DNA of 21,559 nucleotides. Source: a virus. The position numbers were made by a program, and so were the translations under genes. Location: positions 1 to 21,559 of the IMG/VR virus record IMGVR_UViG_3300035698_020820; one strand, written 5' to 3'. The notes below the pieces were generated by a model that was not told the DNA's origin, did no database searches, and saw only the letters and a program-made list of their open reading frames with translations. The number at the start of each line of letters is the position of its first letter. The stretch's first letter is position 1. This document shows, piece by piece, positions 1-16,488 of this stretch.

Positions 1-153
1 TACATGAGGATCTACAGGGGGGCCATGCGTGCGAATTGCACGGAGTCACTGTTGCGGGAGTTGGCCGACTGCGCCGGGCTCTCTTTCGTTGACTTCATGG
101 GACGAAAGGAAGCCCTCAATGGGGCGGTGAAAAATCCAGACGAAGCCGGTTGA
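1..153 (+). CDS. C-terminal end of an unidentified upstream gene (partial) or a small ORF
   Basis: Frame 1 is open from the left edge of the window to a TGA at 151-153. The first ATG in this frame is at position 4, so this is either the last 50 codons of a gene that begins outside the window or a 49-aa ORF. The visible peptide contains two cysteines and ends in a charged, proline-containing tail (NPDEAG). I do not recognise it. It lies about 30 bases upstream of the next ORF on the same strand, so it probably belongs to the same transcript as the csf genes. It could also be non-coding, because it is short and a longer ORF overlaps it on the other strand. Confidence 0.4.
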   Translation, partial: YMRIYRGAMRANCTESLLRELADCAGLSFVDFMGRKEALNGAVKNPDEAG

Positions 154-183
154 CACACATTTTGATGAGGAGCCGAAGGGGAA

Positions 184-378
184 GTGGTGAGCAAAACACT
201 GGGCGAAGCACTCGGTTTGACAGTAGAGAGCCTTCTGGCTCTCAGCGACGAAGAACTGGAGCGGCAACTAAAGGCAGCGGAAAACGGAGAGATTGCAACC
301 ACGTTCAGGACGCTTGAGGAATTCTCCGCATGGCTGGCAGATCGAACGACAGCAACGAACGACAAGGAGAGGCGATGA
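184..378 (+). CDS. Small hypothetical protein translationally coupled to csf2
   Basis: A 64-aa acidic and probably helical protein starting at GTG 184; a second GTG follows at 187. A purine-rich stretch with GAGGAG and GAAGGGG lies just upstream and could serve as the ribosome site. Its stop codon overlaps the ATG of csf2 in an ATGA at 375-378, so the two genes are probably translationally coupled. The sequence includes a short LSDEELERQL helix and no recognisable domain or motif. In type IV-B loci the gene before csf2 is usually the small subunit (Cas11, roughly 120 residues). At 64 residues this one is too short for a complete Cas11, and a Cas11-like domain seems instead to be fused to the next gene. 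It could be a csf accessory protein or a remnant. No function is claimed. Confidence 0.6.
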   Translation: MVSKTLGEALGLTVESLLALSDEELERQLKAAENGEIATTFRTLEEFSAWLADRTTATNDKERR

Positions 379-1619: not shown

Positions 1620-1620
1620 C

Positions 1621-2358: not shown

Positions 2359-3514
2359 CTTCGAGCGTGTCTATGTGTCCTTCTCGGGCGGGAAAGACAG
2401 CAGCGTCATGTTTCACATGGCCATGGACGAAGCCAGGAAGCGCAAACGAAAGCTCGGGGTGATGTTCATTGACCTTGAGGCGCAGTACGAGCTGACGATA
2501 GAGCATGTGGAGGAGTGCTTCGATCTGTACCAGGACGAAATCGAGCCGTACTGGGTCTCCCTTCCCGTCCTGCTCCGAAATGCAGTGTCAGTATTCGAGC
2601 CCAGGTGGTTGTGCTGGGACCCGGAACAGAAGGATATTTGGGTTCGCAAGCCGCCAGCTCTCGCCATAACGAAAGAGGATTTCTTCCCATTCTTCAGAAG
2701 AGGAATGGAGTTCGAGGAGTTCGTCCCGAAGTTCGGTGAGTGGTTCGGTGGAGGGAAGTCTACGGCGTGCATGGTCGGGATTAGGACGGACGAGAGCCTC
2801 AATCGGTGGCGCACGATCAAGAGCACGAAGAAGACGATGATGGACGGGAGGGGATACACGACGAAGGTGAGCGACAACGTGTACAACGTCTACCCGATCT
2901 ACGACTGGAGGACCAGGGATATCTGGATTTACAACAACAAAGAGCGACGGCCATACAATCGACTTTACGATCGCATGCACCAGGCGGGGCTGACCATTCA
3001 CCAGCAACGGATCTGCCAGCCGTACGGCGATGACCAACGAAAGGGGCTGTGGCTGTTCCACGTAATCGAACCGCAAACATGGGCCAAGGTGGTAGCCCGA
3101 GTCAACGGAGCGAACCAAGGGGCTCTCTATGCGAGGGAGTCAGGGAACGCTTTGGGCCGGCTGAAGATATCCAAGCCCGAGAATCACACATGGAAGAGCT
3201 TTGCGTATCTGCTGCTCGGCTCGATGCCACCGGCGATGAAACGCCACTACGAAGACAAGATGTTGGTCTTCATCAAGTGGTGGGCAGACAGGGGATACCC
3301 GGACGGCATCCCGGATGTGCTCCCGGCCAACCAGGAAAACGCTTCAGGGTACGACAGAAAGCCATCATGGAGGAGAATATGCAAGGCTCTACTGAGAAAC
3401 GACTACTGGTGCAAGGGGCTGAGCTTTTCCCAGACGTCGAGCACGAAGGACGCAGTGAAGAACTACCGAAGGCTGATGGACAAAAGGAGGCAGGAATGGG
3501 ACTTGACGATGTGA
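2285..3514 (+). CDS. ibrA: IbrA-like PP-loop ATPase of the PAPS-reductase family (DUF3440-like)
   Basis: A 409-aa protein. GTG 2285 is chosen because it gives the family's typical N-terminus (KKYIGMNVFDAA followed by RIEWTFDNFERVYVSFSGGKDS); a purine-rich GGGAGAAAAG precedes it. Upstream in-frame codons encode sequence unlike the family. The PP-loop SGGKDS lies at 34-39, the ATP-pyrophosphatase signature for adenylating a substrate. IRTDESLNRW and YPIYDWRTRDIW blocks, and C244 in a RICQPYGDD context, match IbrA/DUF3440 proteins. There is no ECGLH motif, so it is unlikely to be an assimilatory PAPS reductase. It starts inside csf1 and overlaps the ParB-like gene by 19 bases, and IbrA with IbrB is a known two-gene pair. 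IbrA/IbrB are known from E. coli as regulators of immunoglobulin-binding proteins; the biochemical reaction is not settled. Here it lies inside a csf operon, which is unusual. Confidence 0.87.
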   Translation: MTQKKYIGMNVFDAARQRIEWTFDNFERVYVSFSGGKDSSVMFHMAMDEARKRKRKLGVMFIDLEAQYELTIEHVEECFDLYQDEIEPYWVSLPVLLRNAVSVFEPRWLCWDPEQKDIWVRKPPALAITKEDFFPFFRRGMEFEEFVPKFGEWFGGGKSTACMVGIRTDESLNRWRTIKSTKKTMMDGRGYTTKVSDNVYNVYPIYDWRTRDIWIYNNKERRPYNRLYDRMHQAGLTIHQQRICQPYGDDQRKGLWLFHVIEPQTWAKVVARVNGANQGALYARESGNALGRLKISKPENHTWKSFAYLLLGSMPPAMKRHYEDKMLVFIKWWADRGYPDGIPDVLPANQENASGYDRKPSWRRICKALLRNDYWCKGLSFSQTSSTKDAVKNYRRLMDKRRQEWDLTM

Positions 3515-4140
3515 AGCAGGCAAAGGTTGACTCAGTCCTTGCTGGACTTGCGGAATTGGCCGGGTGGTCTGACGATGAGAAAATTGAGGCATCGAATCAG
3601 GTGAAAAAGAGGTTGCATGCTGCCGGCCCATTCTCCGACCAGCCAGTCGACTGTGTCTTGTGGGTGAAGTCGGTGCGGGTCATGGCCAATGACTACAACC
3701 CGAATGTGGTCGCACCACCGGAAATGAAACTGCTCGTCCGCAGCATCGAGTCAGACGGCTTCACGCAGCCGATCGTCACGAACGAAGAGGAGGGGGATGT
3801 GTTCGAGGTAATCGACGGGTTCCACAGATTCAGAGTGGGAACGGAGATCGAATCTGTCAGGTCCGGGACCCTTGGATATCTGCCCGTCACTAGGATCCGC
3901 CAGGACAGAGACGGGAAGTCCGACAGGATAGCATCGACGATTCGACACAACAGGGCGCGGGGGAAACACATGGTCCAGGAAATGTCGAACATTGTACTGG
4001 AGTTAGCCAGGAGAAACTGGAACAACGACAAGATCAGCAGAGAGTTAGGCATGGAGCCAGACGAAGTGCTGAGGCTGAAGCAAATAACCGGGCTTGCGGA
4101 GATGTTCTCTGACCAGGAATTCAGTGATGCATGGGAGTGA
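3496..4140 (+). CDS. ibrB: IbrB-like ParB/Srx-fold protein
   Basis: A 214-aa protein from ATG 3496, which has AGGAGG about 6 bases upstream. After an approximately 55-residue N-terminal helical segment comes a ParB N-terminal-like domain: ANDYNPN ending at 70, APPEMKLL, TQPIV, then the nucleotide-contact motif DGFHRFR at 107-113 and TIRHNRARGKH ending at 158. A helix-turn-helix-like segment (ISRELGMEPDEVLRLK) follows at about 180-195. These blocks match IbrB, the partner of IbrA. ParB-fold domains bind and sometimes hydrolyse CTP or ATP, and related folds occur in DndB-type DNA modification proteins. The gene overlaps ibrA by 19 bases and the next PP-loop gene by 10, so the three are probably co-translated. 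Whether it binds DNA, RNA or nucleotide here is unknown. Confidence 0.9.
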   Translation: MGLDDVKQAKVDSVLAGLAELAGWSDDEKIEASNQVKKRLHAAGPFSDQPVDCVLWVKSVRVMANDYNPNVVAPPEMKLLVRSIESDGFTQPIVTNEEEGDVFEVIDGFHRFRVGTEIESVRSGTLGYLPVTRIRQDRDGKSDRIASTIRHNRARGKHMVQEMSNIVLELARRNWNNDKISRELGMEPDEVLRLKQITGLAEMFSDQEFSDAWE

Positions 4141-4868
4141 ACGAGGACGCAATTTACAGGGCCGTATTTTCTGCCAGATATGAGAGCGCAATCAGTGACG
4201 CTTCCGGTATCATTGAATCAATCGGTGCGCATGCTGGCAGGGTGGCGGTCGCTGTATCCGGGGGGAAGGACTCCACAGCAATGGCGCACATCGCAGTGAC
4301 CGTATTGCCTGTGAAGCCCCTCCTCGTCTGGAACGATTCGGGCTTGGAGCTTCCGGAGTCAGAGGCCGTCGTTCGGAGTTTGGCAGCTCGTCTCGGGTGT
4401 AGGCTGGCTATCGCCACAGGAAAGGCTCTTGACATCAAGCGCAAACTCGGAGGATTCGGAGCGGAGAAGAAAGCCAGGCGTACCGACGAACTCGCAATCA
4501 TATACCCCGTACGGGAGCTATTGCGGGCAGAGGGAATGGAGGTCAACCTCGTTGGGCTTCGTGAGCAGGAGAGCTACACGAGGAAAATGGTCATTCGCAA
4601 GATGGGTCCGACGTATCAGTCGAAGAGGTGGGGGTGCCTGGTTGGGTGGCCAATGCGCCGATGGTCTGCCGCTGACGTTTTCGCTTATATTGACGAGCAC
4701 GATCTCCCGCTTCACCCGGCGTACACGCGGACGGACTGGGCGGACAGGAACTCAATTCGGGTGTCATGGCTGTGGGATTCGACCCGTGAACGATTTGGAG
4801 ACATCGAATATTTGAGAAGATACTACCCCAAAATCTGGGCACAACTGAAATCAGAGGGGCTGATATGA
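4131..4868 (+). CDS. cysH: CysH-like PP-loop protein of the type IV-B-associated kind
   Basis: A 245-aa protein with the PP-loop SGGKDS at 43-48, a VWNDSGLELPES strand-loop, GLREQES and a single cysteine at 169 in a KRWGCLVGWPMRRW context, followed by the conserved W-x-A-x-D-V-F-x-Y-I helix. This is the PAPS-reductase/ATP-pyrophosphatase fold. The ECGLH redox motif of true PAPS reductases is missing. CysH-like proteins of this size are the characteristic ancillary gene of subtype IV-B CRISPR-Cas loci, and this copy directly precedes csf3. It is clearly not a recent duplicate of the IbrA-like gene upstream, since only the PP-loop region is shared. Two starts are possible, ATG 4131 or GTG 4137; the second gives a GTGA overlap with the ibrB stop. 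Substrate unknown; nucleotide or RNA modification by adenylation is an inference. Confidence 0.82.
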   Translation: MGVNEDAIYRAVFSARYESAISDASGIIESIGAHAGRVAVAVSGGKDSTAMAHIAVTVLPVKPLLVWNDSGLELPESEAVVRSLAARLGCRLAIATGKALDIKRKLGGFGAEKKARRTDELAIIYPVRELLRAEGMEVNLVGLREQESYTRKMVIRKMGPTYQSKRWGCLVGWPMRRWSAADVFAYIDEHDLPLHPAYTRTDWADRNSIRVSWLWDSTRERFGDIEYLRRYYPKIWAQLKSEGLI

Positions 4869-5551
4869 GCGACCATTATGGGCCGATGAGGGTAACGTTT
4901 CGATTCGACGGGACGGGAGTCTGCCACGACACGAACAACCCGACACACCTGGACGGGCTATTGGTGTGGTGCATGCTGCCCGACAGTAAGCGTTCCGAGA
5001 GCTTGACAAGAGACGAACAGCCAGAAGACATCATACTTCCACTGGAAAGATGGCACAGCGAAGACCCAAAAGCATGGGGGTGGAGAGCATCGGCGTTGTT
5101 TCCTGACGGGCAGTTTGCTGAGACTCGCTTCCATCGAAGGCGGAAGATGCAGATGAATCGACTGGAGAGAACAACCGGCACCGTCAACACGCAGATCGGA
5201 ACCATGAAGGAGTGGAACGTTCCTGTGCCAGTACTGCTCTGCCATACCTTGGTAGCTTTTGCTGTCGGGGACAGGTTGCTTGTGGAGCGCCTGCTGAGAG
5301 ACAACATTCGATATGTCGGGAGAGAGAGGGCTCGTGGGTTTGGCCGAGTGGTTGGAATCGACGTAGATGCCACAGACGGTGACTGGAGTTGCGTTCGCAA
5401 TAGTGCGTGCACCAGGTACCTCCCGGACCGACAAGGAGAGAGGATGGTCAGGCCAAGGCCGCCGTACTGGAATATCGCAGACGCTGTTCCCCATAAAGAC
5501 GTTGGTGAGCCGGCGCCGGAGTGGACGTGGGCACCAAGACAACTGTTTTGA
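4865..5551 (+). CDS. csf3: Csf3, Cas5-family RAMP subunit of a type IV complex
   Basis: A 228-aa protein whose ATG overlaps the cysH-like stop in an ATGA. It shows the Csf3 pattern: an N-terminal RAMP strand (RVTFRFDGTGVC), THLDGLLVW around 27-35, a long insertion with ILPLERW, and the glycine-rich C-terminal loop YVGRERARGFGRV at 150-162, followed by a WSCVRNSACTRYLP segment and RPRPPYW. By family, Csf3 is the Cas5-like protein that caps the 5' end of the guide RNA in type IV complexes. With Csf2 and Csf1 it completes the core of a type IV effector complex. It is the last gene of the operon; the next gene is convergent, 32 bases away, and I see no clear terminator between them. Confidence 0.82.
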   Translation: MSDHYGPMRVTFRFDGTGVCHDTNNPTHLDGLLVWCMLPDSKRSESLTRDEQPEDIILPLERWHSEDPKAWGWRASALFPDGQFAETRFHRRRKMQMNRLERTTGTVNTQIGTMKEWNVPVPVLLCHTLVAFAVGDRLLVERLLRDNIRYVGRERARGFGRVVGIDVDATDGDWSCVRNSACTRYLPDRQGERMVRPRPPYWNIADAVPHKDVGEPAPEWTWAPRQLF

Positions 5552-5583
5552 GCGACAACAAACCAGAGGGATGAGGATGTCGG

Positions 5584-6000
5584 TCAGTTGCTCCGCCCCT
5601 TCTTCTTGGCGGTTTTCTTGACTCCCTTCTTCTTGTCGATGTCGTTGGCGTCCCTGAGGAACCGGCGCTCCTCCTTTGGGATCGGGATCGTGTCACAGTA
5701 TCCTTTCTCGTGCCACCATACGAGGGCGCTTCGGATGATTCGGCGGATCTGGAGGATGCTCGCTTCTGCCCTGGGCCTCGTCCCGTCCTTCGTCGGTTGG
5801 TTCAGAGCTGCGTCGCTCTTGAAGAATACTGCGATGTGCATCGGCATGATCTTGTCGATGATCTTGGCGGCTCCGAGGTCTGCCTCGAGGAGTGCGAGGG
5901 ATCTCCCTGCCGTTTTGACGGTGCTCTTCTTGCGTCCGTCCTCGTTGAGGCTGCTGATGTACTCTTCGATTCCCGTTTTGAGTTCGATGTCCTTTGCCAT
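5584..6000 (-). CDS. Stand-alone integrase-type core-binding (SAM-like) domain protein with a basic tail
   Basis: A 138-aa protein read right to left from the ATG at 6000, with AGGAGG in the end of the preceding gene. Residues about 10-110 look like the N-terminal core-binding domain of tyrosine recombinases: IEEYISSL, STVKTAGRSLALLEADLG, a central helix with HIAVFFKS, then RAEASILQIRRIIRSALVWWHEKGYC. In an integrase this domain clamps DNA. Here the protein ends shortly afterwards with a lysine-rich tail (KKKGVKKTAKKKGR), and the catalytic domain with its Arg-His-Arg-Tyr residues is absent. It is therefore probably a DNA-binding accessory protein, not a recombinase. It is the last gene of a three-gene leftward cluster and is convergent with csf3. 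Domain call moderate, function unknown. Confidence 0.7.
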   Translation of the reverse strand: MAKDIELKTGIEEYISSLNEDGRKKSTVKTAGRSLALLEADLGAAKIIDKIMPMHIAVFFKSDAALNQPTKDGTRPRAEASILQIRRIIRSALVWWHEKGYCDTIPIPKEERRFLRDANDIDKKKGVKKTAKKKGRSN

Positions 6001-6002
6001 GA

Positions 6003-6302
6003 TTAGTCCTCCTTGGTGGTGTAGATTATAACGGATCCGCTCGTGACGATGTGCTCTCCGAATCTGTCAGATCGTGTCATTGTCGCTCTGTACCTTTGGC
6101 TCAATCCATCGTCTCCGTTCCAGGTGAGCCTGCAGGCGAGTCCGGTCCTTCGTTCGAGGCTCTTGATGACCGCCTGCCTTCGGGCTTCGTTTTTTGATTC
6201 GCAGCCACTGTGGTCAGCCAGTGCATGCAGGATCCAGTTTCCGAGGTGCAGTGTTTGTGCGAGGACTGGGTCGAGCCAGAATTGGATTCGTTGCTTCTTC
6301 AT
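6003..6302 (-). CDS. Hypothetical protein
   Basis: A 99-aa basic protein starting at the ATG at 6302 (on the minus strand), preceded by GGAGACAACC, a good ribosome site. It ends two bases before the start of the core-binding-domain gene and carries that gene's AGGAGG, so the two are probably co-translated. The sequence has an FWLDPVLAQTLHLGNW start, a helical middle with ESKNEARRQAVIKSLERR, and a strand-rich C-terminus. No cysteine cluster, membrane segment or catalytic motif is evident. I do not recognise a family. Small phage genes between an accessory module and the packaging genes are often early regulators or host-interaction proteins, but nothing in the sequence shows this. Confidence 0.65.
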   Translation of the reverse strand: MKKQRIQFWLDPVLAQTLHLGNWILHALADHSGCESKNEARRQAVIKSLERRTGLACRLTWNGDDGLSQRYRATMTRSDRFGEHIVTSGSVIIYTTKED

Positions 6303-6326
6303 GGTTGTCTCCTTGCCCGGTACGAT

Positions 6327-6340
6327 GCCCCGGGCGGGGC
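6327..6340. other. GC-rich hairpin between two leftward genes
   Basis: GCCCC at 6327-6331 and GGGGC at 6336-6340 form a perfect 5-bp stem with a four-base loop (6 bp if the loop is tightened). It lies between the stop of the 66-aa gene and the ribosome site of the 99-aa gene. No T-run follows on either strand, so an intrinsic terminator is doubtful. It may act as a processing or pausing site. Confidence 0.3.
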
Positions 6341-6349
6341 GTTGGTTTA

Positions 6350-6550
6350 TTATCCGAAAAGCTTCTCAGCGTGTCGGACGACCCAGTGGCCTCGCCCTTG
6401 CAAAGCTACGAAGATGGTCTTGCCCTTGGGGCTCTTCAGCTCAACTTTCCCCTGGGCCATCGTGCCGACCATGGGAGCCCCCATGTCCGTAAGTGCAGAA
6501 ATCATTGCCCGTGTGTCTTTCGGTGTGGTCAGTTTGGTGGTCATTTTCAT
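6350..6550 (-). CDS. Small hypothetical protein
   Basis: A 66-aa protein read leftward. The ATG at 6550 is preferred over the in-frame ATG at 6583 because GGAGAAG stands about three bases before it, while the upstream ATG has no ribosome site and would add only eleven charged residues. It starts MKMTTKLTTPKDTRAM and contains a likely beta-rich core (GKVELKSPKGKTIFVAL and GRGHWVVRH). I do not recognise a family. It is the first gene of the leftward cluster, so its upstream region holds the divergent promoters. Alternative: the longer 77-aa form starting at 6583. Confidence 0.6.
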   Translation of the reverse strand: MKMTTKLTTPKDTRAMISALTDMGAPMVGTMAQGKVELKSPKGKTIFVALQGRGHWVVRHAEKLFG

Positions 6551-6619
6551 GTTCTTCTCCGTTGTGTTTGTCTTCTTTTCCATGACTCGACATTACCGTT
6601 CTCCCAGGGGGACGCAAGG

Positions 6620-6646
6620 ACTTTCTTTGCCGTTGGCAAAGAAAGT
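6620..6646. promoter_or_regulatory. Perfect 12-bp inverted repeat (operator or terminator-like hairpin)
   Basis: ACTTTCTTTGCC at 6620-6631 and GGCAAAGAAAGT at 6635-6646 are exact reverse complements separated by three bases. The element lies in the gap between the divergent 66-aa gene and the ribbon-helix-helix gene. It is followed by TTTCTGG, too weak a T-tract for a confident terminator. Its symmetry and place suit an operator for a dimeric repressor; the adjacent ribbon-helix-helix protein is an obvious but unproven candidate. A hairpin insulating the structural operon is the main alternative. Confidence 0.5.
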
Positions 6647-6684
6647 TTCTGGAGGCTCCGAAAACTCTGGACCTACAAAGGGGG

Positions 6685-6714
6685 TTGACAGGCAAGCGAG
6701 CACATGGGTATCCT
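6685..6714 (+). promoter_or_regulatory. Promoter-like -35/-10 pair before the structural operon
   Basis: A perfect TTGACA at 6685-6690, an 18-base spacer and TATCCT at 6709-6714 (4 of 6 to TATAAT). Transcription would begin around 6721, which is the first ATG of the ribbon-helix-helix gene. No other promoter of similar quality is seen in the 170-base divergent gap. Confidence 0.5.
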
Positions 6715-6720
6715 CTGGGC

Positions 6721-6879
6721 ATGTCGAGAATGCCCAGACAAATGATCCAGTTCACCCGGCCGCAAATGATCTTCCTGCGAGAAGAGGCAGAGCGGCTTGG
6801 TCTGACAGTCGCCGAGTTGGTTCGTCGAATCATTGACGATCACCGCACTCGAGCCGGCCGCGTCGAGGTGAATCGCTGA
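6721..6879 (+). CDS. Small ribbon-helix-helix-like protein preceding the terminase
   Basis: A 52-aa protein from ATG 6721 (a second ATG is at 6730; a TTG at 6685 is in frame but lies in the -35 box). The body has the pattern of a short ribbon-helix-helix DNA-binding domain: one strand (RQMIQFTRPQ), then helix MIFLREEAERLG and helix TVAELVRRIIDDHR. Proteins of this type are usually dimeric repressors. Its stop overlaps the terminase ATG in TGATG, so the two are translated together. Because small terminase subunits normally occupy this position, it could have a packaging role, but it is far shorter than usual TerS proteins and the repressor-type fold is the better reading. No ribosome site is evident, which would fit a leaderless message. 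Confidence 0.62.
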   Translation: MSRMPRQMIQFTRPQMIFLREEAERLGLTVAELVRRIIDDHRTRAGRVEVNR

Positions 6880-8438
6880 TGGCTCAGAAGTCAGAGATGG
6901 ATGATCTTCTAAGCAGCCTGTCACCGAGCGAGCGCGCTCTTTACGAGCTGCTCGGGAACCCCGCAGACTGGGGAGAAACCATGCTTGTGAATCGTGACGG
7001 GCAACCGCGGCGCTACAGAGAATATCAACGAGAGGATCTCGAATGCTCGGCAGATCGAATCGTCCACATGGATGGCAGAGCGGTCGGAAAGACGGTGGAC
7101 CTGAGTACGATGATCCTCTGGTTCGCCTTGCGGAACACAGGCAAGTCAGTCTTGATCGCCGCTCCATTCCAGGGACAGTTGGACACGATCATCGATGAGA
7201 TTGAATACCAGATCGGAGCCAACGACATCTTGCGCGAAAGTGTCGCCCGCAACTCCCAGGGACAACCGAAGATCAAACGCAAACCATACTTCGAGATGGA
7301 GTTCACCAACGGAGTGAGGCTGTATTTCCGACCAGCTGGTTCCGCCGGTGGTTCTTTCCGTTCGTTGCATGTGGACTTCCTGGTCGTCGACGAGGCGGCT
7401 TGGTTGCCAGAGCCAGCTTGGAATGCTCTCAGGCAGTGCCTGAACGCAGGCGGGCAGTTCCGCGTTTATTCGACGCCGAACGGATTGCGTGACACGACAT
7501 ATTACAGGATTACGCAGAGCAAGGAATGGCGGCAGTTCCGATGGCCCTCTTGGGTATCTCCCGATTGGACAGAAGAAAGGAAGGCCGACCTGCTCGAATT
7601 CTACGGAGGCAACGATACCCCCGGATGGCAACACGAAGTTGCAGGTGAGCACGGGAAGCCGACCTACGGAGCCTTCAGCACGGTTCAGGTAATGCGCTCG
7701 TTGTCCCATGTCCAGGGTTACAGAAAGATTACAATCAGAGGATCCGACCTGGACACTTGCAAAGACGAGCAGGCCATCCGGGAGCGCCTCGAGATTCTTC
7801 TCAATCTGTCCGGTGGACAAGGGATCTATTGGCTCGGCGGTGACCTCGGATACACCTCGGATCCGACCGAGCTATTGTTGCTTGAGGAAGACCAGGAAAC
7901 CAAGCGCCTCCGTTTGATTCTCAGGATCCACGCCGAGCATATTGCCTACCCAGTGATAACCGAAGTCATCGCTCTCGTTGATCGCCTTTACGTTCCCCAC
8001 GGAATCGGAGTGGACAGAGGCGGGAACGGGATGAGCGTCGTTCAAGAGCTGCTCGGCCTCGACAAATATCGGAACCTGAATCTGTCGGGCAGATTGGTCG
8101 GTTACGATTTTGGCGGCACGATCGAGGTTGGAGAGGACGAACGCGGGCGGGCGGTGAAGGTCAGAATCAAGGAGCACATGACCGCACTCATCAACGAGGC
8201 TCTGAACGGTCGTGTTCTGGAACTGCCGAAGCAGGACTCTCAGGTCGAGGATCAACTCTGTACTCAAACTTATGTGCTGAGTGAGAGGGGCGTTGTATAC
8301 TCCAAAGGCAACGATCACGTCGTCGACGCTCTCAGGTGTGCTATGATCCGCCGAGCGCAGGAAATCGATCCGAGATATGATCGCACAGAAACAACGCCGG
8401 ATGTTTTCCCGGCGCGGCTGAGTCGGCCGTTACCATAG
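6879..8438 (+). CDS. terL: Terminase large subunit (packaging ATPase/nuclease)
   Basis: A 519-aa protein with all the parts of a large terminase. Walker A is GRAVGKT at 66-72; Walker B is FLVVDEAAW with D171 and E172; a coupling-motif-like YSTPNG follows. The C-terminal RNase H-like nuclease has an acidic residue in GGDLGY (D322), another in GIGVDRGGNG, and NDHVVDA with D479 and D483. The enzyme pumps phage DNA into the prohead and cuts the concatemer. Start ATG 6879 overlaps the previous stop. The length is normal for the family and all catalytic residues appear intact. No recognisable small terminase subunit is found next to it apart from the 52-aa ribbon-helix-helix protein. The portal gene follows after 13 bases. 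Confidence 0.95.
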   Translation: MAQKSEMDDLLSSLSPSERALYELLGNPADWGETMLVNRDGQPRRYREYQREDLECSADRIVHMDGRAVGKTVDLSTMILWFALRNTGKSVLIAAPFQGQLDTIIDEIEYQIGANDILRESVARNSQGQPKIKRKPYFEMEFTNGVRLYFRPAGSAGGSFRSLHVDFLVVDEAAWLPEPAWNALRQCLNAGGQFRVYSTPNGLRDTTYYRITQSKEWRQFRWPSWVSPDWTEERKADLLEFYGGNDTPGWQHEVAGEHGKPTYGAFSTVQVMRSLSHVQGYRKITIRGSDLDTCKDEQAIRERLEILLNLSGGQGIYWLGGDLGYTSDPTELLLLEEDQETKRLRLILRIHAEHIAYPVITEVIALVDRLYVPHGIGVDRGGNGMSVVQELLGLDKYRNLNLSGRLVGYDFGGTIEVGEDERGRAVKVRIKEHMTALINEALNGRVLELPKQDSQVEDQLCTQTYVLSERGVVYSKGNDHVVDALRCAMIRRAQEIDPRYDRTETTPDVFPARLSRPLP

Positions 8439-8451
8439 CAGGGGGCAGATC

Positions 8452-9876
8452 ATGGCGACGCAAAAACGCAAGCCGATGAAGAAAAACTCGAAGAAATCAA
8501 ATGCAGGTGTCCCGGAGGCAAGCTCCACCCCAGATCCGATGCCGCTTGCCAGTTGTGCATCCATGTCAGGGAGTTACTTCGGAGACGTGAACGTGACCGA
8601 GGCCATCCCTGCAGATTGGGACGGTCGGGCAAGGAAGGCGGTCGAGTATTTCCAGGAGGAGCCGCTGGTCTCGAACGCCATCAACGCGTGGAGGACATTC
8701 GCTGTTGGAGACGAGATCGGTGTCAATTGTGAATCAGAGCACGTCAGGGACGAGGCGCGAGAAGCATTCGACCGGCTGAACCTGAATCGATTTATCAAGG
8801 ACATGGTTCTTCAGCTCCTGGTCAAGGGAGACGCCATCGGGTATTTCATCCGGGATGAAGGAGCCGATCTGCGTCGAGTTATCTGCGTCAACCCAGTGAG
8901 CGTGACGCTGGAGTATGAAGGCGATACTTTGGTCAGAGCGATCCAGCGTCCGGAAAATCCGGATGGATCTTTTGGGGAAGAGGTGTCTTTGGCTCTGGAT
9001 CAAATGATCCACATCAAGTGGAACGCCCCAGAATTCGAGTCTCGTGGAATCTCGATGGTTCTGCCAGCATTCGAGGCAATCGAATTGTTGCGTGATTACA
9101 GGAAGGCAGAGCGAGCCATCGCCAAGCGATGGACGACTCCCCTTCGTTTCATCCAGGTCGGCGGCGCCTATGGCAATCGGATCATTCAGCCTGATCAAGC
9201 GACCATCAACAGGATTCGTGATGAGATTGAGAACGCCGATCTGAAGTCTGGGCTTGTGGTGCCGTTCTATGTGAAGGCAGAAACCTACGGGGCAGACGGG
9301 GCAGCATTGGATACTCACATCCGGATGAAGGAGGTCAAGGAGGACATTCTCGTCGCCCTGGGGATGGCAAGATCGATCGTCACCGGGGACGGGCCCAACT
9401 TTGCAACTGCGTCAGTCTCGATGCAGAAGATGATCGTCCAGCTCAAGGAAATCAAACAGGCGGTCCGGATTATCCTCGACTGGTTTTTTGACGAGTGGAT
9501 GACCAGAAAAGGGTTCAAAAACGAAAAGCTAAACTACGAGTTCTCCGATCTGGATCTGACGGCAGAAGTTGAGCAGAAGAAGCTGCTCCTCGAGTTGTAC
9601 GACCGTGGGTTGATCTCCAAGAACACACTCCAGCGAAAGATGGGGCTCTCTTCATCCGTCGAGTCTCGTGAAAAGGGAGACGAAGAGATCGTCGTCGACA
9701 CGAACTGGTCCGTCGAGGACATCGCAAAGTTGGTGGCGCTTGAGGTGTTGACAGTGGACGAGGCAAGGGAGCGGCTCGGCCTCGATGGTGACTCAGGGAA
9801 GGCCAAGGCAGACGCTGCACAACGAGATATCGAGAAGTTGTATGCTCGAAACGAAATGACCAATCCAGGAGGGTGA
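8452..9876 (+). CDS. Phage portal protein
   Basis: A 474-aa protein following the terminase. It has a lysine-rich N-terminus, then portal-type blocks: AVEYFQEEPLVSNAINAWR, MVLQLLVKGDAIGYFIRDE, RVICVNPVSVTLEY, MIHIKWNAPEFESRGISMVLPAFE, and a long helical region ending in VALGMARSIVTGDGPNFATA before the C-terminal crown helices. The portal is the dodecameric ring at the capsid vertex that passes DNA and joins head to tail. Length and position after the terminase are as expected. The start ATG 8452 has AGGGGGCAG upstream. The C-terminus contains VEDIAKLVALEVLTVDEARERLGL, common in portals of this group. Confidence 0.9.
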   Translation: MATQKRKPMKKNSKKSNAGVPEASSTPDPMPLASCASMSGSYFGDVNVTEAIPADWDGRARKAVEYFQEEPLVSNAINAWRTFAVGDEIGVNCESEHVRDEAREAFDRLNLNRFIKDMVLQLLVKGDAIGYFIRDEGADLRRVICVNPVSVTLEYEGDTLVRAIQRPENPDGSFGEEVSLALDQMIHIKWNAPEFESRGISMVLPAFEAIELLRDYRKAERAIAKRWTTPLRFIQVGGAYGNRIIQPDQATINRIRDEIENADLKSGLVVPFYVKAETYGADGAALDTHIRMKEVKEDILVALGMARSIVTGDGPNFATASVSMQKMIVQLKEIKQAVRIILDWFFDEWMTRKGFKNEKLNYEFSDLDLTAEVEQKKLLLELYDRGLISKNTLQRKMGLSSSVESREKGDEEIVVDTNWSVEDIAKLVALEVLTVDEARERLGLDGDSGKAKADAAQRDIEKLYARNEMTNPGG

Positions 9877-10182: not shown

Positions 10183-11139
10183 ATGATGCTTTTGCAAAAG
10201 GGAGTCGAGGCTCTAGAAGTTCAGGAACTCAGGCAGATGATGCAGCGCGTTGGATACGTCGTTGATGACGGACTCGAATTCGAGGCCGAGCTTGATCGGA
10301 GTGTGCGGGCATACCAAGAAGATCGAGGCCTTTCGATTGACGGAAAGGTGCTCGTAAACCGAGGAAAGACTTGGCCGCGACTGGAGCGGGAACCATCAGT
10401 CGTGTTCTGCTCCGACCCGTCGCCCAGAGCGTCGAGGTTGTCGAAAGGCCTGGAGACACTATACAGCGCGACGTCTCGACGGATGATCCCTGGATACAGA
10501 GGCAGCAGAATCGGAGCATGGCAGCGAATGGAGGCTGGACAAGAACGAGCTTTCATCGTCCCATTTGCGAGTGACGGATCTGGAGAGCATGGAGGCACCT
10601 GCGGACATGCCGCCTGGCTCCTCACTTCCTGGTGGATGCGGGCGATGTTTCCAGAGAAGGGAATCTTCCCGACGTGGAGGACAGGACGCGGAGCGACCAG
10701 GACGATGCCGCATCGGATGCTCCCTCGCTGCAGTATCGACGGCGAAGTCATCGCTGGTTCCCTCTGCCGAGGCCTGATGGAGTACATCGCCTCGACTGAC
10801 GTCGTTGCAGAGCTGGCAGACATCGCGGAGTTGGAGAATCCTGCTCAGTGGAACTTCATTCAGAAACGGAGCGGGCACGTCATTCTCGTGTTGCGCTTAG
10901 ATGAGAACATGGGGTGCATCGACCCGCGCACCGGCCTCCCGGCAGTTCCTGGTTTGTACCGGCTCGCAGCAGACGGGAGCAAACGAACGCTCGGTCGACC
11001 ATGGACTTGGCGCAGAGTGAAACCAGGAGAAAAGGGGCCCTGGACGATTTACGGGATGGCTCCCGTTCCTGAGTCTGGTGAGATCGAGTGGGGTCCCCTT
11101 GCCGGAGCCCCGGACCTGCCTCTCGTCTTGGAGGTCTAG
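10183..11139 (+). CDS. Peptidoglycan-binding-domain protein, putative cysteine-peptidase-like lysin
   Basis: A 318-aa protein starting at ATG 10183 (a second ATG is adjacent) with GGAGGGAA upstream. Residues about 10-55 look like a PG_binding_1 domain (EALEVQELRQMMQRVGY, then a Y-Q-E-D-R-G-L-S-I-D-G-K-V ending). The remainder contains GGTCGHAAW with C140 and SGHVILV with H232, a Cys...His order seen in NlpC/P60, CHAP and related cysteine peptidases or amidases, and a later DPRTG turn. That suggests a cell-wall hydrolase. The spacing between the two residues is larger than usual for NlpC/P60, so the catalytic call is tentative. It sits between portal and Mu F-like genes, not in a lysis cassette, so it may be a virion-associated enzyme used at DNA entry. 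No signal peptide or membrane segment is visible. Confidence 0.55.
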   Translation: MMLLQKGVEALEVQELRQMMQRVGYVVDDGLEFEAELDRSVRAYQEDRGLSIDGKVLVNRGKTWPRLEREPSVVFCSDPSPRASRLSKGLETLYSATSRRMIPGYRGSRIGAWQRMEAGQERAFIVPFASDGSGEHGGTCGHAAWLLTSWWMRAMFPEKGIFPTWRTGRGATRTMPHRMLPRCSIDGEVIAGSLCRGLMEYIASTDVVAELADIAELENPAQWNFIQKRSGHVILVLRLDENMGCIDPRTGLPAVPGLYRLAADGSKRTLGRPWTWRRVKPGEKGPWTIYGMAPVPESGEIEWGPLAGAPDLPLVLEV

Positions 11140-11143
11140 CTGC

Positions 11144-11989
11144 ATGGCCGACACAGCCCAGGAAATCCGAATCAAGAGGGCGGTTGCGGAGGCGACAAAG
11201 CGCCGGGACCGGTACGCAGATGATCGCGTCCAGGAGATGGTAGGTATCCTGGACGGCGCTGCCGACGACGTGGCAAAGCAGATTTCCAGGCTCGAGCAGA
11301 AATCAGTCATCAAAGACTGGCAGACCATGCGGCTGTCGATTCTGAAAGACCTCGAGAAGGAGATCGATGGCATCGCCGCTGAGTTGAAGGCAAAGGGCAA
11401 GATCGGCATCAAGGCCAACGTCGAGGGTGCCATGAAGCTCGGCATCGAAGATGGCATTGCCCAGTTGCAGGCGATGGAGAATCCGGATTTCGCTGACCTG
11501 TCCAAACCCCAAATCAACTCTTTGGTGACGAGGACGTTTGCGACAATCGATCGTTCTGCCGTCGACTTTCTGGCAAACTACCAACTTCAACTCTTGGGAG
11601 ATGTGACGAGCGAGTTGGCTTCTGGCATCAAGAAAACAGTGGCCCAGGGTATCCTGACCGGGAAGAGCATCCCTGAAATCTCAAAGGGCATCGGCCGGGT
11701 TGTGAAGGACAAAGAAGCGTTCAAACGAGCCGGCAAGACCGTGTTCAAGACCGCGCAGCAGCGAACCACCCTCATCGCCCGCACCGAGACCCTCCGGGCA
11801 CACAACGAGGGCCGCAAGGTCTTCTACCGGCAGGTCGGGGTCAAGAAGGTGAAGTGGCTCACTGCCGACGACGAACGGACATGCCCGATTTGTCGGCCGC
11901 TTGACGGGGTCGTATTCGAGGTCGATAAGTTGGACGGGCCCCCACGTCACCCCGCCTGCCGGTGTACGGTTTTCGCTGTAATCACATAA
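11144..11989 (+). CDS. Mu F-like head morphogenesis (minor head) protein
   Basis: A 281-aa protein from ATG 11144, with GGAGG about eleven bases upstream. The N-terminal two thirds are helical. The C-terminal third is the Mu gpF-like/SPP1 gp7-like domain: QRTTLIARTETLRAHNEGRK, VKKVKWLTADDERTCPICRPLDG with a CPIC cysteine pair, and PPRHPACRCTV with H, C and C completing a probable metal site. Such proteins sit near the portal and are needed for head assembly or DNA delivery. The position downstream of the portal is normal. It is the last gene before a 113-base gap and the large polyprotein. Function at the level of minor head protein is secure; the details vary between phages. Confidence 0.88.
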   Translation: MADTAQEIRIKRAVAEATKRRDRYADDRVQEMVGILDGAADDVAKQISRLEQKSVIKDWQTMRLSILKDLEKEIDGIAAELKAKGKIGIKANVEGAMKLGIEDGIAQLQAMENPDFADLSKPQINSLVTRTFATIDRSAVDFLANYQLQLLGDVTSELASGIKKTVAQGILTGKSIPEISKGIGRVVKDKEAFKRAGKTVFKTAQQRTTLIARTETLRAHNEGRKVFYRQVGVKKVKWLTADDERTCPICRPLDGVVFEVDKLDGPPRHPACRCTVFAVIT

Positions 11990-12056: not shown

Positions 12057-12085
12057 TTGACATCACATTTCGACGTCGATAGGCT
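12057..12085 (+). promoter_or_regulatory. Weak promoter-like pair before the head polyprotein gene
   Basis: The gap 11990-12102 holds TTGACA at 12057-12062 with TAGGCT (3 of 6) after 17 bases, and no gene. Transcription would start a few bases before ATG 12103. The -10 element is weak, so this is suggestive only. Confidence 0.3.
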
Positions 12086-12102
12086 TGTGTGGACATAGCT
12101 GG

Positions 12103-15100
12103 ATGATCGATTTAAATCGAATCGACATGGAGAGGCTTTTGCAGACTGACGCAGACCGGATCCGATTTCTTCTAGAGAGTGACGCTGAGTTCTTTGCGTT
12201 CATGGGTGACGATGCCTTAGAGGCTTCGGCTGCTGCCGAACGAAAGAAGTACATCACGAACTACATTTCCGCTGTGGACAAATCGTTGCGTGCCGCCGCT
12301 CCAGGTTGGGACGACGCGGATAAAGAGTACCGTTACCGCATCCTCCCTCCCGACAATTTCGTGTCAGATTCGTTCCGCACGAAGCAGCTCGACGGCGTGG
12401 AAGGACTCTCCATGGTGCTCGGAAAATTCAAGCCTGAATTCGTTCCAGAGGGTGGCAACGAAGAGTTGATGATTGTCCAGTCACTCCGGTTCACCAAGGA
12501 GTCTTGGGAACTGGACGAGGCAAAGAAGTGGCTCGACGAGCACCGGAAGACATTTGCCGAGCAAACTGCAGAGGCAGACATGGACAACGCTGACCCAGAG
12601 GCAAGCGGCTTCTTCATGTCTCTGACAGCCGGTTGTGACTTGGATCTGCTCGAGGCCATGGCCGCGCAGAAGGACAAAGACGCAGTCCGCGTTTCATCGT
12701 TCATGGGATCCAAGTATTTCATCCTGGACTTCTTGTGGAAGCAAACGCCCCGGGACGCAAAGAGTGTCCTGGACGCTTTCTCAGGCGGAGCGAACGTAGG
12801 ATACTTCTATAAGCGAAAGGGGCTCCGGGTCGTCTCGAACGACAAGTTGGACTTCCCCTATGCAATCGCAAGGGGCCTGATTGAGAACTCGAAAGAGACT
12901 CTTTCCGAAGAGGACATCGAGAGCCTTTTCGCTGCCAACCCATCCGCCGGTGATTTCTGTGAGAAGCACTTTTACGGATACTATTTCACGAAGCCGATCC
13001 TCCAGTTCATAGATGTCACCTGGGCAAACATCCAGAAGCTACAGGGATACAAGAAAGATCTGGCACTCGCTGCTTTCGGATGGACCGTGAAGCAGAAGGC
13101 TCACTACGGAGAATTTTCCAGGAGCAAGAAGGGGCTCACAGGGCCTGTCAAGATATCCGAGGGACAAGAAACTTCCCTCACAAACATCCCGATTGCAGAG
13201 TTTCACAGAGCATTCAGGAGTTACATCGCCCGAGCAAATCGCCTTGTGTTCTGCAACGGGACAGCGTGCAAGGTAACGCAAGTCGACGCGGTGCAGGCCA
13301 TCAAGAGTTCCAACTGCGATCTGGTTTATGCTGACCCTCCCTATATCACCGAGTTTGGAAGTAACGACTACGAGACGAAGATGCACTTCGTCGAGGGTCT
13401 TATGACCATGTGGAAGGGAAAAGAACTCCAGGCAAACAATCGCAGAGACTACAAGTCAAAAACCAAGTATAATCGTGAAAGCATCACGGCGCTGATTGCA
13501 GACATCGTGTCCAGCTCTTCAGGCAAGCAATTGTTGCTGTCGTATAGAGACAAAGCATACCCAACTGAAAAAGACATCAAGGCGATGTTCAAAGAGCGAT
13601 TCAAGACCAGCTCCGTCAAACGGATCAAGGTCCAGTATGGAATCGTTCGTGGAGATCCTGAGTCCGGAGGGAAATACGCCGAAGAACTGATTTTCATCGG
13701 GGAAGACCCGATGCAGGCTTCTTCGACTGCTACACTGGATGAAGGACGGCTGAACTCTGCCGCTGGCATTTGGGACGACGGGACTCGGGATTACGTTTAC
13801 GTTGTTATGGCAGCGGACCAATTCGTCGTCGAGAGCCTCCAGACGAAACAGCTTAGTGGAGCCGAGGGAATCGCAATCAGAATGGGGAAGTTGAAGGATA
13901 TCTTTCTCCGTGATGAAGAGGATCCAGAAGAAGAGCATGTCCAGTCAGTGATTTTCCAGAAGTCAAAATGGCCGCTCGGGAAGGCCCAGGAATGGCTCGA
14001 TGAACACTGGAGGATTTACGCGTCAATCAAGAACTCGGTTCTCATGGCGACCGCAACAACGAGCCAGAGCACAGAAGCAGCGAGCCGTCCAGAGCAGAAT
14101 ATCCACACCAGCATGGCGGGTCGAATTGATACTCAATCGCTATCTGCGTCGGCGTCTCAAGACACTGACAAGCGTTTCAGGTTCATCCTTACCCATGTCG
14201 GCACGAATACCAACGGAGATCACTTCACTGCTGATGAACTCTCCAAAGCAGCTAAATCAGCGATCGGGAAGAAGATCGATCTTTCTCACTCCCAGGAATT
14301 CCGGGACATTGTCGGCGGGATCGTGGAATCCAAATTCGTGTCTGCCGGTGAACTGTCCCGCGTCGAGTGCGTCGGTGAACTGTTCACCGACGAGTCAGAG
14401 CCGGCCAGGCTCGCTTACAAGCTGATGAAGCGAGAGATCATCGGGCACGTTTCGATGGAGTGCCATTATCAAGAAGGTGAATGTTCTGTTTGTGGAAAGA
14501 AGATCCGGAGCAAAGCGGATTACTGTTCACATCTGAAGAATTACAAGGGTCGAGAGTACCAGGGAAAACTGGTGTTCGAGATTTTGCGTGGCATTACGTT
14601 TACCGGCATGGGGCTTCTGGACCGGGAAGGCGCCGACGAAAAGGCTAAGATCCGGGAAGTGGCCAATCATCACACGAACAGAAGAGGAGAAGAAGCGATG
14701 GACCCCAAGAACAAGAAGATCGCGGCTGAGGAAGTCGATCCTACGACTTTGTCTGACGCCGAAAAGCTGGCGCTCATCAAGAAGCTGCAGGGTGAGAACT
14801 CGCGGCTGATGGGTGAGGTCGAGAGCATGCAGAAGAAACTCGACGAAGCCGAAGCCTCCAGGAAGGCGGCTGCGCGCAAGGCAAAAGCCCAGACGCTCCT
14901 CGTCCATTGGGAAGATGCCGGGCGTGAGTTCGACTCCGAAGCTGCGAAGGAAACCGAGTTGGATCGATTGCAGAAGATGACCGACGAGGCGTTCGCCGCC
15001 ACCGAAGCGACGGTTCAGAGTTTCGCCGCTGGCAAGAAGAAGAAGAAGACGCCAGAGGAAGAAGAAGCCGAGAAGGTCGCGGCTGAAGAAGCGAAGAACA

Positions 15101-15240
15101 AGAAGGCAAAGGCCGACTTGAAGGCAGATGCAGGAGCGCACCCCGTTGCGACGCCGGACAGAAAGGGCATGTCCCTGACTGAAGAGCTCTCCGCTGGTTT
15201 CATGGCAGCTTACAACGACAGCGTCAACAACGACGGCTAA
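12103..15240 (+). CDS. Head polyprotein: duplicated phage domain with embedded adenine methyltransferase, prohead-protease-like domain and scaffold
   Basis: A continuous frame of 1045 aa from ATG 12103 (12127 and TTG 12085 are alternatives; none has a clear ribosome site). Order: helical start; domain copy 1, about 68-152; a D12-class N6-adenine methyltransferase, about 195-540, with FMGSK at 200-204, SAM-binding DAFSGGANVG from 224 and DPPY at 411-414; domain copy 2, about 554-641, sharing WDD, TKQL, VQS and WLDEH elements with copy 1; a linker; a prohead-protease-like domain with candidate catalytic H729 and S784 and a zinc-finger-like C794, C797, C808, H810; then a coiled-coil, Lys/Glu-rich scaffold from 866. 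It lies just before the decoration and capsid genes, the normal place for protease and scaffold. The methyltransferase could protect DNA or be carried in the capsid; processing by the protease is an inference. All methyltransferase motifs seen are intact. Confidence 0.85.
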   Translation: MIDLNRIDMERLLQTDADRIRFLLESDAEFFAFMGDDALEASAAAERKKYITNYISAVDKSLRAAAPGWDDADKEYRYRILPPDNFVSDSFRTKQLDGVEGLSMVLGKFKPEFVPEGGNEELMIVQSLRFTKESWELDEAKKWLDEHRKTFAEQTAEADMDNADPEASGFFMSLTAGCDLDLLEAMAAQKDKDAVRVSSFMGSKYFILDFLWKQTPRDAKSVLDAFSGGANVGYFYKRKGLRVVSNDKLDFPYAIARGLIENSKETLSEEDIESLFAANPSAGDFCEKHFYGYYFTKPILQFIDVTWANIQKLQGYKKDLALAAFGWTVKQKAHYGEFSRSKKGLTGPVKISEGQETSLTNIPIAEFHRAFRSYIARANRLVFCNGTACKVTQVDAVQAIKSSNCDLVYADPPYITEFGSNDYETKMHFVEGLMTMWKGKELQANNRRDYKSKTKYNRESITALIADIVSSSSGKQLLLSYRDKAYPTEKDIKAMFKERFKTSSVKRIKVQYGIVRGDPESGGKYAEELIFIGEDPMQASSTATLDEGRLNSAAGIWDDGTRDYVYVVMAADQFVVESLQTKQLSGAEGIAIRMGKLKDIFLRDEEDPEEEHVQSVIFQKSKWPLGKAQEWLDEHWRIYASIKNSVLMATATTSQSTEAASRPEQNIHTSMAGRIDTQSLSASASQDTDKRFRFILTHVGTNTNGDHFTADELSKAAKSAIGKKIDLSHSQEFRDIVGGIVESKFVSAGELSRVECVGELFTDESEPARLAYKLMKREIIGHVSMECHYQEGECSVCGKKIRSKADYCSHLKNYKGREYQGKLVFEILRGITFTGMGLLDREGADEKAKIREVANHHTNRRGEEAMDPKNKKIAAEEVDPTTLSDAEKLALIKKLQGENSRLMGEVESMQKKLDEAEASRKAAARKAKAQTLLVHWEDAGREFDSEAAKETELDRLQKMTDEAFAATEATVQSFAAGKKKKKTPEEEEAEKVAAEEAKNKKAKADLKADAGAHPVATPDRKGMSLTEELSAGFMAAYNDSVNNDG
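14698..15240 (+). CDS. Nested scaffold protein from an internal in-frame start
   Basis: ATG 14698 lies in frame within the polyprotein (codon 866) and has AGAGGAGA eight bases upstream, a better ribosome site than any near the polyprotein's own start. The resulting 180-aa product begins MDPKNKKIAAEEVDP, contains a coiled coil (LIKKLQGENSRLMGEVESMQKKL) and a Lys/Glu-rich tail (GKKKKKTPEEEEAEK), and ends just before the decoration gene. This matches scaffolding proteins. Nested protease/scaffold genes with a shared C-terminus are known in lambda (C/Nu3), so separate production of free scaffold together with the protease fusion is likely. Translation from this site is an inference from the ribosome site. 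Confidence 0.6.
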   Translation: MDPKNKKIAAEEVDPTTLSDAEKLALIKKLQGENSRLMGEVESMQKKLDEAEASRKAAARKAKAQTLLVHWEDAGREFDSEAAKETELDRLQKMTDEAFAATEATVQSFAAGKKKKKTPEEEEAEKVAAEEAKNKKAKADLKADAGAHPVATPDRKGMSLTEELSAGFMAAYNDSVNNDG

Positions 15241-15252
15241 GGAGGACATCTC

Positions 15253-15615
15253 ATGGCGAAGGTAGAAACAAAGGCCCCCGGCTTCCGTTATGGTCTGGGC
15301 AAAATCTCGGAAGACGCAGTCGAAGGGCAGCTCGTGGTGCTCTCGAACAATGACGTTTTCTCAATCAACGACGACCCGGCAGTTCGGTCGTTTGGAATCC
15401 TCGCCGCAGACGCGAGCGAAGGGGAACTCTGTGCGGTGCACTGCATGGGCGGGATCTATGATACCGACCAGTACACCGGCGAGATTGCAGCACAAGGCTT
15501 TCTGGCCTGTGATGCTTCGACTGGTCTCTTGCGGGCGATCGGGGTTGACGAAGAGGCTGTAGCACAGGCCATCTCCGTCGTTTCCGGAACTCTCCGCTTC
15601 AAGCTGTTGGTATAA
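15253..15615 (+). CDS. Capsid decoration-like / head protein
   Basis: A 120-aa protein from ATG 15253 with GGAGGA seven bases upstream. It is beta-rich with many glycines and alternating hydrophobic strands (GQLVVLSNNDVFSI, FGILAADASEGELCAVHC, ending LRFKLLV). It lies directly between the scaffold and the major capsid gene, where decoration or cement proteins (lambda gpD-like or DUF2190-like) are usual. No signature residue proves the family, so the name rests on size, composition and position. It lies 12 bases upstream of the capsid gene and is presumably made in similarly high amounts. Confidence 0.65.
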   Translation: MAKVETKAPGFRYGLGKISEDAVEGQLVVLSNNDVFSINDDPAVRSFGILAADASEGELCAVHCMGGIYDTDQYTGEIAAQGFLACDASTGLLRAIGVDEEAVAQAISVVSGTLRFKLLV

Positions 15616-15627
15616 GGAGGAACGACA

Positions 15628-16488
15628 ATGGATCCGAAACTGAACGTCCATAGCGACGAATTCATGCAGACAATGGCCAACCTGATGCAGCGCGCGTCGG
15701 AGTCGCCCGAAGGCCTGCGAGCATTGGCCGCGGCCATTGCTCCCCCAATCGACCAGGAGATCAAGCGTCGTGAGATCACCTCGCTCCTTCTGACCCAACA
15801 CAACCTGCCCGCCGGTGAGCCGGCCAAGTACCAGAAAAAGGCAGAAGTCGCTGCCTACTGGGTATCCAAGGACGGCGACGCAGTCGAGTCCGGGATCGAG
15901 GAAGACGAAGTCGAGTTTCCGATCAACCGGATCGCCTCGATGCCCGTCGTGGACATCTCCGTGCTCAAACACGGGAATGTTGGGTCCATGCTGGACATCC
16001 AGAAGGCAGCCGCGACGGAAATACGCAAAGCCATCGACCGACGAACGATTACCGTTCTGTCCGCCGCTGTGCCCGCTGACCAGACCGTTACCGTCTCCGG
16101 TGGTTCACTGACCGAAGAGGCCTTGAGCGAAGCGATGGCCTTCATCGAGGACCAGGAATTGCGCGTCAAGTATATCTTGCTTCGAGGAGCGAGACTGGCT
16201 GACATGCGCACCTTCGGGTTGGACCCGGTGACCAAGCGTGAACTCCTGCTCAAGGGCATCTTCAAGACCTACAACGGAGCCGAGATCATCGCCTCCGCAG
16301 CCATGGGGTTGACCGAGGTCATCCTGGTCGCTGAAGAAGAGGTCGGGAAGTATGCGATCAGGCAGAAGTTGACCACCGACAACATCAGCGAAACCAAGCG
16401 GTTCAAGACCGGCTGGTTGGCGTGGATGGAAGCGGCCCAGGGAATCACCCGACCGGATCTTCTGGCCAAGGTCACCATCACCGCGTAG
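15628..16488 (+). CDS. Major capsid protein (HK97-fold likely)
   Basis: A 286-aa protein from ATG 15628 with AAGGAGG upstream. Its layout fits an HK97-fold capsid protein: a helical N-terminus, an N-arm/E-loop-like region (AYWVSKDGDAVESGIEEDEVEFPINRIASMPVVDISVL), a spine-like helix (MLDIQKAAATEIRKAIDRRTITVL), a P-domain with AMAFIEDQELRVKYILLRGARLADMR, and the C-terminal segment NISETKRFKTGWLAWMEAAQGITRPDLLAKVTI. Position after protease/scaffold and decoration genes supports it strongly. No cleavage site is obvious; the mature form may lose some N-terminal residues if the adjacent protease acts on it. Confidence 0.87.
   Translation: MDPKLNVHSDEFMQTMANLMQRASESPEGLRALAAAIAPPIDQEIKRREITSLLLTQHNLPAGEPAKYQKKAEVAAYWVSKDGDAVESGIEEDEVEFPINRIASMPVVDISVLKHGNVGSMLDIQKAAATEIRKAIDRRTITVLSAAVPADQTVTVSGGSLTEEALSEAMAFIEDQELRVKYILLRGARLADMRTFGLDPVTKRELLLKGIFKTYNGAEIIASAAMGLTEVILVAEEEVGKYAIRQKLTTDNISETKRFKTGWLAWMEAAQGITRPDLLAKVTITA

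Follow-up and report, generated by a model that had tools for sequence, protein, structure and literature searches.

The head module of the virus studied here contains a single open reading frame in which a predicted Dam-type adenine methyltransferase precedes, in frame, a predicted prohead protease and a scaffold. This fusion is old and widespread. The reading that we prefer, while giving it roughly even chances, is that the frame serves a lineage of tailed phages as head protease-scaffold gene, with the methyltransferase as its N-terminal cargo, delivered by the capsid.

Methyltransferase, protease and scaffold in one frame

The window (the whole stretch of DNA that was analysed, a viral record of 21.6 kb) carries a late head module, recognised with Pfam, PHROGs and NCBIfam, which begins with a terminase (6879-8438) and a portal (8452-9876). 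The upstream neighbour of the fusion gene is a MuF-like minor head protein (11078-11989, +; Pfam 1.6e-17, and synteny); on the other side lie a small protein without family match (15253-15615, +), decoration-like by position and placed by synteny, and an HK97-fold major capsid protein (15628-16488, +; NCBIfam NF042927, 2.9e-68). No second protease or scaffold candidate was seen between the portal and MuF genes and the capsid gene of the window. Among relatives, the order MuF, fusion, small protein, capsid protein recurs nearly everywhere that there is room for it.

An ORF scan gives a stop-free frame from 12061 to 15240 that encloses methyltransferase, protease and scaffold. The whole gene is placed at 12139-15240 (+), with its stop at 15238-15240 and with ATG 12127 and ATG 12103 as alternative starts. 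TTG 12139 is the probable start: among the candidates it has the strongest ribosome site (-6.4 kcal/mol), and in the two nearest relatives, L002 and L003, the aligned codon is a GTG start served by GGGAGG (-10 kcal/mol). The order of domains is N-terminal segment, first WLD domain, methyltransferase, second WLD domain, protease, Cys/His loop and scaffold, where WLD is our name, taken from a WLDEH motif, for a domain of about 100 residues. The N-terminal segment (12139-12270, +) is conserved in an alignment with L002, L003 and L005, and consists of a helix, TDADRIRFLLESDAE..., up to YITNYI. A preliminary description of this DNA had reported intact D12 motifs in frame with prohead-protease and scaffold domains, and frame, motifs, profiles and predicted structure all bear this out in the position described. 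Its simple picture of a methyltransferase set in a polyprotein stands as far as the fusion goes, but has to be amended, in that the methyltransferase is flanked by two WLD domains.

The methyltransferase domain (12685-13722, +) is assigned by Pfam, PHROGs, structure and tree to the D12/Dam-type N6-adenine methyltransferases, and within the family to a clade that we call MT2. Its motifs occur in order, with FMGSK at 12700-12714, the SAM motif DAFSGGANVGYF at 12772-12807 and DPPY at 13333-13344. Pfam MethyltransfD12 (PF02086) matches the window protein with 48.2 bits (cut-off 22, E 1.6e-12), PHROG 27806 ('DNA methyltransferase') matches at 1.7e-154 across both the methyltransferase and the protease parts, and the predicted structure aligns with E. 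coli Dam (2ore; Z 13.2, 215 residues) and T4 Dam (1yfl; Z 12.4, 206 residues). Pfam, PHROGs and predicted structure thus concur in identifying a Dam-type adenine methyltransferase; PDB sequence searches with the methyltransferase and with the protease returned nothing useful. Across the family, 84/84 methyltransferase domains have kept DPPY. In our tree these domains split into two clades, MT1 with a support of 0.94 and MT2 with 1.0, and the window enzyme groups with those of L002, L003 and L012 in MT2. Free-standing relatives of MT1 sit in AlwI-/DpnII-type restriction-modification systems, and a plasmid collection yielded free-standing methyltransferases only, with no fusion.

The prohead protease domain (14170-14550, +), delimited by conservation, structure model and structure matches, is predicted to adopt the T4 gp21/assemblin fold. 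A His (14287-14289) and a Ser (14452-14454) are invariant across 48 sequences (H721 and S776 when numbered from 12127). A Cys-x2-Cys ... Cys-x-His loop follows (14482-14532, +), the C, C, C and H columns of which are invariant, and which likely binds zinc. The second WLD domain and the protease were modelled together, apart from the rest of the chain (mean pLDDT 81, protease about 96), and the best structure match of this model is T4 gp21 (5jbl; Z 10.7, 128 residues, 3.0 A), followed by herpesvirus assemblins at Z about 7 to 10.4 (1vzv, Z 10.4); many prohead proteases are also found among the BFVD matches. Neither Pfam Peptidase_S78 nor NCBIfam proheadase_HK97 matches the window protein, and one relative, L097, falls below the cut-off in both (17.4 of 21 bits and 18.9 of 59 bits respectively). 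As modelled, the window protease is a divergent relative by fold and not S78 proper.

The two WLD copies were delimited with a local HMM. Copy 1 spans 12271-12579 (+), and copy 2, which has a predicted beta-rich fold (pLDDT about 92), lies directly before the protease at 13735-14070 (+). WLD has no Pfam match, no significant PHROG match and no phage match by tblastn, and a structure search gave only a weak match to a BRX domain (6l0v, Z 6.2). The domain is conserved in 15 or more relatives, and L120 and L083 likewise have it ahead of the protease. An alignment with phage G Gp19 extends over 312 columns of the WLD-plus-protease model.

Two further features of the wider neighbourhood deserve mention. 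Just upstream of the fusion, many relatives encode a giant MuF protein of >1,300 residues (L031, at 1-4140; L032, L047, L059, L067, L089, L100 and L110); that of L031 gives weak SAP/Rho_N-like matches, and these proteins may be further ejected polyvalent proteins. At the other end of the window, positions 330-5551 (+) of this phage contig carry type IV CRISPR effector genes: a Csf2/Cas7-like gene (330-1619, +; 6.6e-41), the N-terminal part of which is Cas11-like (1.1e-5), a Csf1/Cas8-like gene (1546-2358, +; 4.3e-12) and a Csf3/Cas5-like gene (4865-5551, +; 8.6e-32). They are accompanied by two PAPS-reductase/CysH-like genes (2180-3514, +, with DUF3440, and 4131-4868, +) and a ParB-like ORF (near 3500-4140, +). 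The set looks like type IV-B with cysH; no CRISPR-like repeat array is present in window positions 1-7000.

Distribution and history of the fusion

Relatives were collected with a profile of the protease-scaffold only, from which the methyltransferase part was left out. Viral contigs yielded 80 matching loci and bacterial genomes another 49, the latter loci being taken for prophages from their head-gene context only. From 110 complete protease ORFs, 54 non-redundant sequences (<90% identity) were retained. In 51/54 of these the protease is preceded, in frame, by one D12 methyltransferase or by two, a proportion that describes this protease branch and not all prohead proteases, since the profile was built from fused sequences. 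With MT for methyltransferase and PRO for protease, the architectures are MT-MT-PRO (18), MT-PRO (16), MT-WLD-MT-PRO (15), MT-WLD-PRO (1), WLD-MT-WLD-PRO (1) and, in the remaining 3, no methyltransferase. Two D12 domains from the two distinct clades share one chain in 33/54 cases, and the window has one such domain; here too the preliminary description has to be amended, in that most relatives have another or a second methyltransferase.

Of the three ORFs that lack the enzyme, L125 starts within the protease domain and is probably a broken gene. The other two, L120 and L128, are intact, and none of the frames of their loci encodes a methyltransferase; the domain has therefore been added to a protease that can function on its own. 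L136 (77% identity), a candidate for a close relative without methyltransferase, was rejected because it is a chimeric contig end. In two relatives an in-frame TAG interrupts the methyltransferase-protease chain (L052, 7041-7043; L119, 570-572), which may reflect decay, readthrough or an error in the sequence. The protease gene is present in two to four copies per genome in Desulfosarcina alkanivorans, Desulfobulbus rhabdoformis, bacterium ADurb.Bin236 and a Holophagae MAG (within L089-L137), and one 133 kb viral contig has two copies (L032, L053).

The same fusion, which was sought in other phages, was found in independent viral contigs and in finished genomes, including the isolate chromosome of Desulfosarcina alkanivorans PL12 (L097, L106). 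Other isolates with the fusion are Desulfobulbus rhabdoformis DSM 8777 (L093, L098) and Ectothiorhodospira shaposhnikovii DSM 243 (L126). Median dN/dS values of 0.054 for MT1, 0.053 for MT2 and 0.062 for the protease indicate that the fusion is under purifying selection. Between methyltransferase and protease the correlation of pairwise distances is 0.87-0.90, as against 0.81 between protease and capsid protein, and 0/999 permutations reach these values, though shared descent raises all such correlations.

The window's own order, WLD-MT-WLD-PRO, is a single case (1/54). Its nearest relatives, L002 and L003 (61-63% identical to the window), have MT1 and MT2 in tandem; in the alignment the window follows their first residues as far as YITNYI, where MT1 starts, and then switches to the first WLD copy. 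This copy is nearest to the WLD that stands between MT1 and MT2 of relatives (40-46% identity), and the second has its nearest counterpart in L083, in the WLD that immediately precedes the protease there (38%). YITNYI in the window would thus appear to be what remains of the first residues of a lost MT1. The simplest reading is an ancestor of the form MT1-WLD-MT2-WLD-protease-scaffold, from which the window would have lost MT1 by in-frame deletion, and L002 and L003 their WLD domains.

A predicted nested scaffold start and a conserved linker

Every in-frame ATG, GTG and TTG of the 54 genes was scored for anti-Shine-Dalgarno pairing, with a threshold of -8 kcal/mol or better. At the border of protease and scaffold, a start codon with a ribosome site at threshold is present in 49/54 genes, compared with 6.7% per random 25-codon window, and in two more relatives (L079, L081) the start is slightly displaced. 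The codon is ATG in 40 cases, GTG in 5 and TTG in 4, such that the residue varies between M, V and L while a start codon is kept. In the window, the ribosome-site scan places an internal Shine-Dalgarno sequence, GAGGAG, at 14684-14689 (+), ahead of ATG 14698 in the same frame; the product (14698-15240, +) would be a scaffold of 180 residues with, as modelled, a long coiled coil and a conserved C-terminal helix. These patterns are strong sequence evidence that a nested gene gives free scaffold from an internal start.

No such conserved start divides methyltransferase from protease. A separate translation start, together with absence of the methyltransferase from virions, had been named in the preliminary description as something that would tell against its reading, and we looked for such a start at this point; strong starts occur in only 6/51 linkers, which is about chance, and none is conserved. 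An own start for the protease was accordingly rejected, and neither a free protease nor a free methyltransferase product is evident among the scanned starts. Given that no linker start is conserved and that the scaffold tail is shared, the methyltransferase should travel with the protease into the prohead, if the chain is indeed the head protease.

The linker before the protease (14071-14169, +) is predicted to be disordered, as judged by low pLDDT, and column conservation and motif counts pick out two conserved short motifs in it, xHT[ST] and one like L-x-[STA]-[ED]-A. The latter is found 29 times in the linker (2.1 expected by shuffling) and 35 times near the scaffold C-terminus (1.4 expected), counts that come from a motif picked post hoc and from homologous columns, and so are not independent; within the protease fold it is found 0 times. 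The window's linker copy, LSASA, deviates from the pattern. We regard L-x-[STA]-[ED]-A as a candidate recognition or cleavage site of the protease, and a conserved disordered linker with such a motif fits with the methyltransferase being cut free.

What the fused methyltransferase may do

Under the capsid-delivery reading, one frame would yield two products late in infection, namely free scaffold from the start at 14698 and the long methyltransferase-protease-scaffold chain, which would be co-assembled into the prohead by way of the common scaffold tail. That the methyltransferase is incorporated in this manner seems to us very likely. The protease would then digest the scaffold and cut the linker, leaving a methyltransferase of ~40 kDa, too large to exit through the shell, and cleavage from the protease is probable. 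The freed enzyme would stay with the packaged DNA and be ejected along with it, a step that could equally well hold or fail, and would methylate the entering genome, or would have done so during packaging, thereby protecting it from host restriction; that anti-restriction is the benefit is likewise finely balanced. The injection and anti-restriction role put forward in the preliminary description is therefore plausible and unproven.

Some considerations weigh against this reading. The fused enzyme could act in the cytoplasm before assembly, and prohead proteases often digest much of the head interior, so that the methyltransferase could be destroyed there. Sequence alone cannot decide between delivery as cargo and methylation in the producing cell. 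The latter is the main rival, which we consider rather unlikely: a late-gene methyltransferase would act in the producing cell just before packaging, its fusion serving timing or dosage, and would be digested later. The position of the gene in the head operon agrees with this, as does the fact that the free-standing relatives are ordinary, cytoplasmic restriction-modification methyltransferases, and in other phages, T4 with its Dam among them, modification of the DNA likewise comes ahead of packaging. For this purpose, however, an independent late gene would suffice, with no tie to the scaffold needed; retention of the fusion in 51/54, with no conserved separate start in the linker, also speaks against this rival.

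It is improbable that the domain works at packaging itself, by marking or reading the packaging start or by retaining DNA at the head, headful cutting then being governed by methylation. GATC methylation does control cutting at P1 pac, and the domain sits in a head-assembly protein with its catalytic motifs intact, but two methyltransferase clades come and go in this position, which would be odd for an essential packaging signal. Still harder to credit is a structural module, DNA-binding or size-determining, in which catalysis is irrelevant; residence within a scaffold protein and absence from L120 and L128 would suit it, yet unused catalytic residues should drift, and DPPY is retained throughout the family with dN/dS about 0.05. 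An assembly or frameshift artefact joining separate genes, against which the preliminary description had cautioned and which could appeal to the metagenomic origin of the contig, the TAG codons of L052 and L119 and the chimeric end of L136, is refuted by the same fusion in independent contigs, in the finished D. alkanivorans PL12 chromosome and at about 100 other loci.

The capsid-delivery reading can be extended, tentatively and at less than even probability, to a self-processing head polyprotein in which tandem MT1 and MT2 would be loaded by the scaffold, cut free and ejected, would methylate both strands of an asymmetric site, and would be gained and lost with host restriction, as in the window's loss of MT1. 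The analogy with M.FokI suggests that MT1 and MT2 of the two-methyltransferase members are such a strand pair.

Comparison with known systems

Methylases in ejected head proteins are already known from polyvalent proteins, among them P1 DarB, which joins a methylase of EcoKI/TaqI type to an SF2 helicase (PMC5512222). The Dar proteins of P1 are loaded into the head and leave it with the DNA to counter restriction, and the prohead protease cleaves one of them, DarA (PMC12810830). DarB and the window protein have in common that an adenine methylase forms part of a multidomain head protein for which entry into the cell along with the DNA is predicted. DarB, however, is a separate protein, whereas the window enzyme is of D12/Dam type and fused to the protease-scaffold itself, and neither Pfam nor PHROGs matches a helicase in it. 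The likeness to DarB drawn in the preliminary description thus survives as an idea, the two being analogues and not relatives.

Virion-delivered methylases are therefore known in concept, while fusion of a protease-scaffold with a D12 enzyme appears to be undescribed: we found no published description in the open-access papers searched and no instance among 50,697 phage records. PHROG 27806 represents the same family as the window protein, but is named for the methyltransferase only, with the head-protease half and nested scaffold unnoted. If our reading is correct, loading of the enzyme would be obligatory, as part of the protease-scaffold chain, and its release tied to head maturation, which would constitute a new route of enzymes into virions. 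It would also account for many of the proteins annotated as 'DNA methyltransferases' in prophages, those of Desulfobacterota, Acidobacteriota and Planctomycetota among others, and isolates with such prophages would allow protection from restriction by a capsid-borne enzyme to be tested.

In M.FokI a single chain unites two adenine methyltransferase domains, each of which serves one strand (PMC3990576). In this M.FokI and other tandem type IIS methyltransferases resemble most relatives of the window, which have two different D12 domains per chain; the differences are that no restriction enzyme partner was seen and that the window keeps the second domain only.

With the T4 gp21/HK97-type proteases, the window protease has in common the fold, the invariant His and Ser and the position before the capsid gene, but it is distant in sequence and has in addition the CxxC...CxH loop and the N-terminal methyltransferase. 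Parallels in gene organisation are lambda C/Nu3 and herpesvirus UL26/UL26.5, where, as in the fusion gene, protease and scaffold follow one another in one frame with a nested start for free scaffold. Lambda C belongs to a different protease family, and the herpesvirus proteases share their fold with the window protease as predicted. Both systems differ from the fusion gene in that they lack enzyme cargo ahead of the protease.
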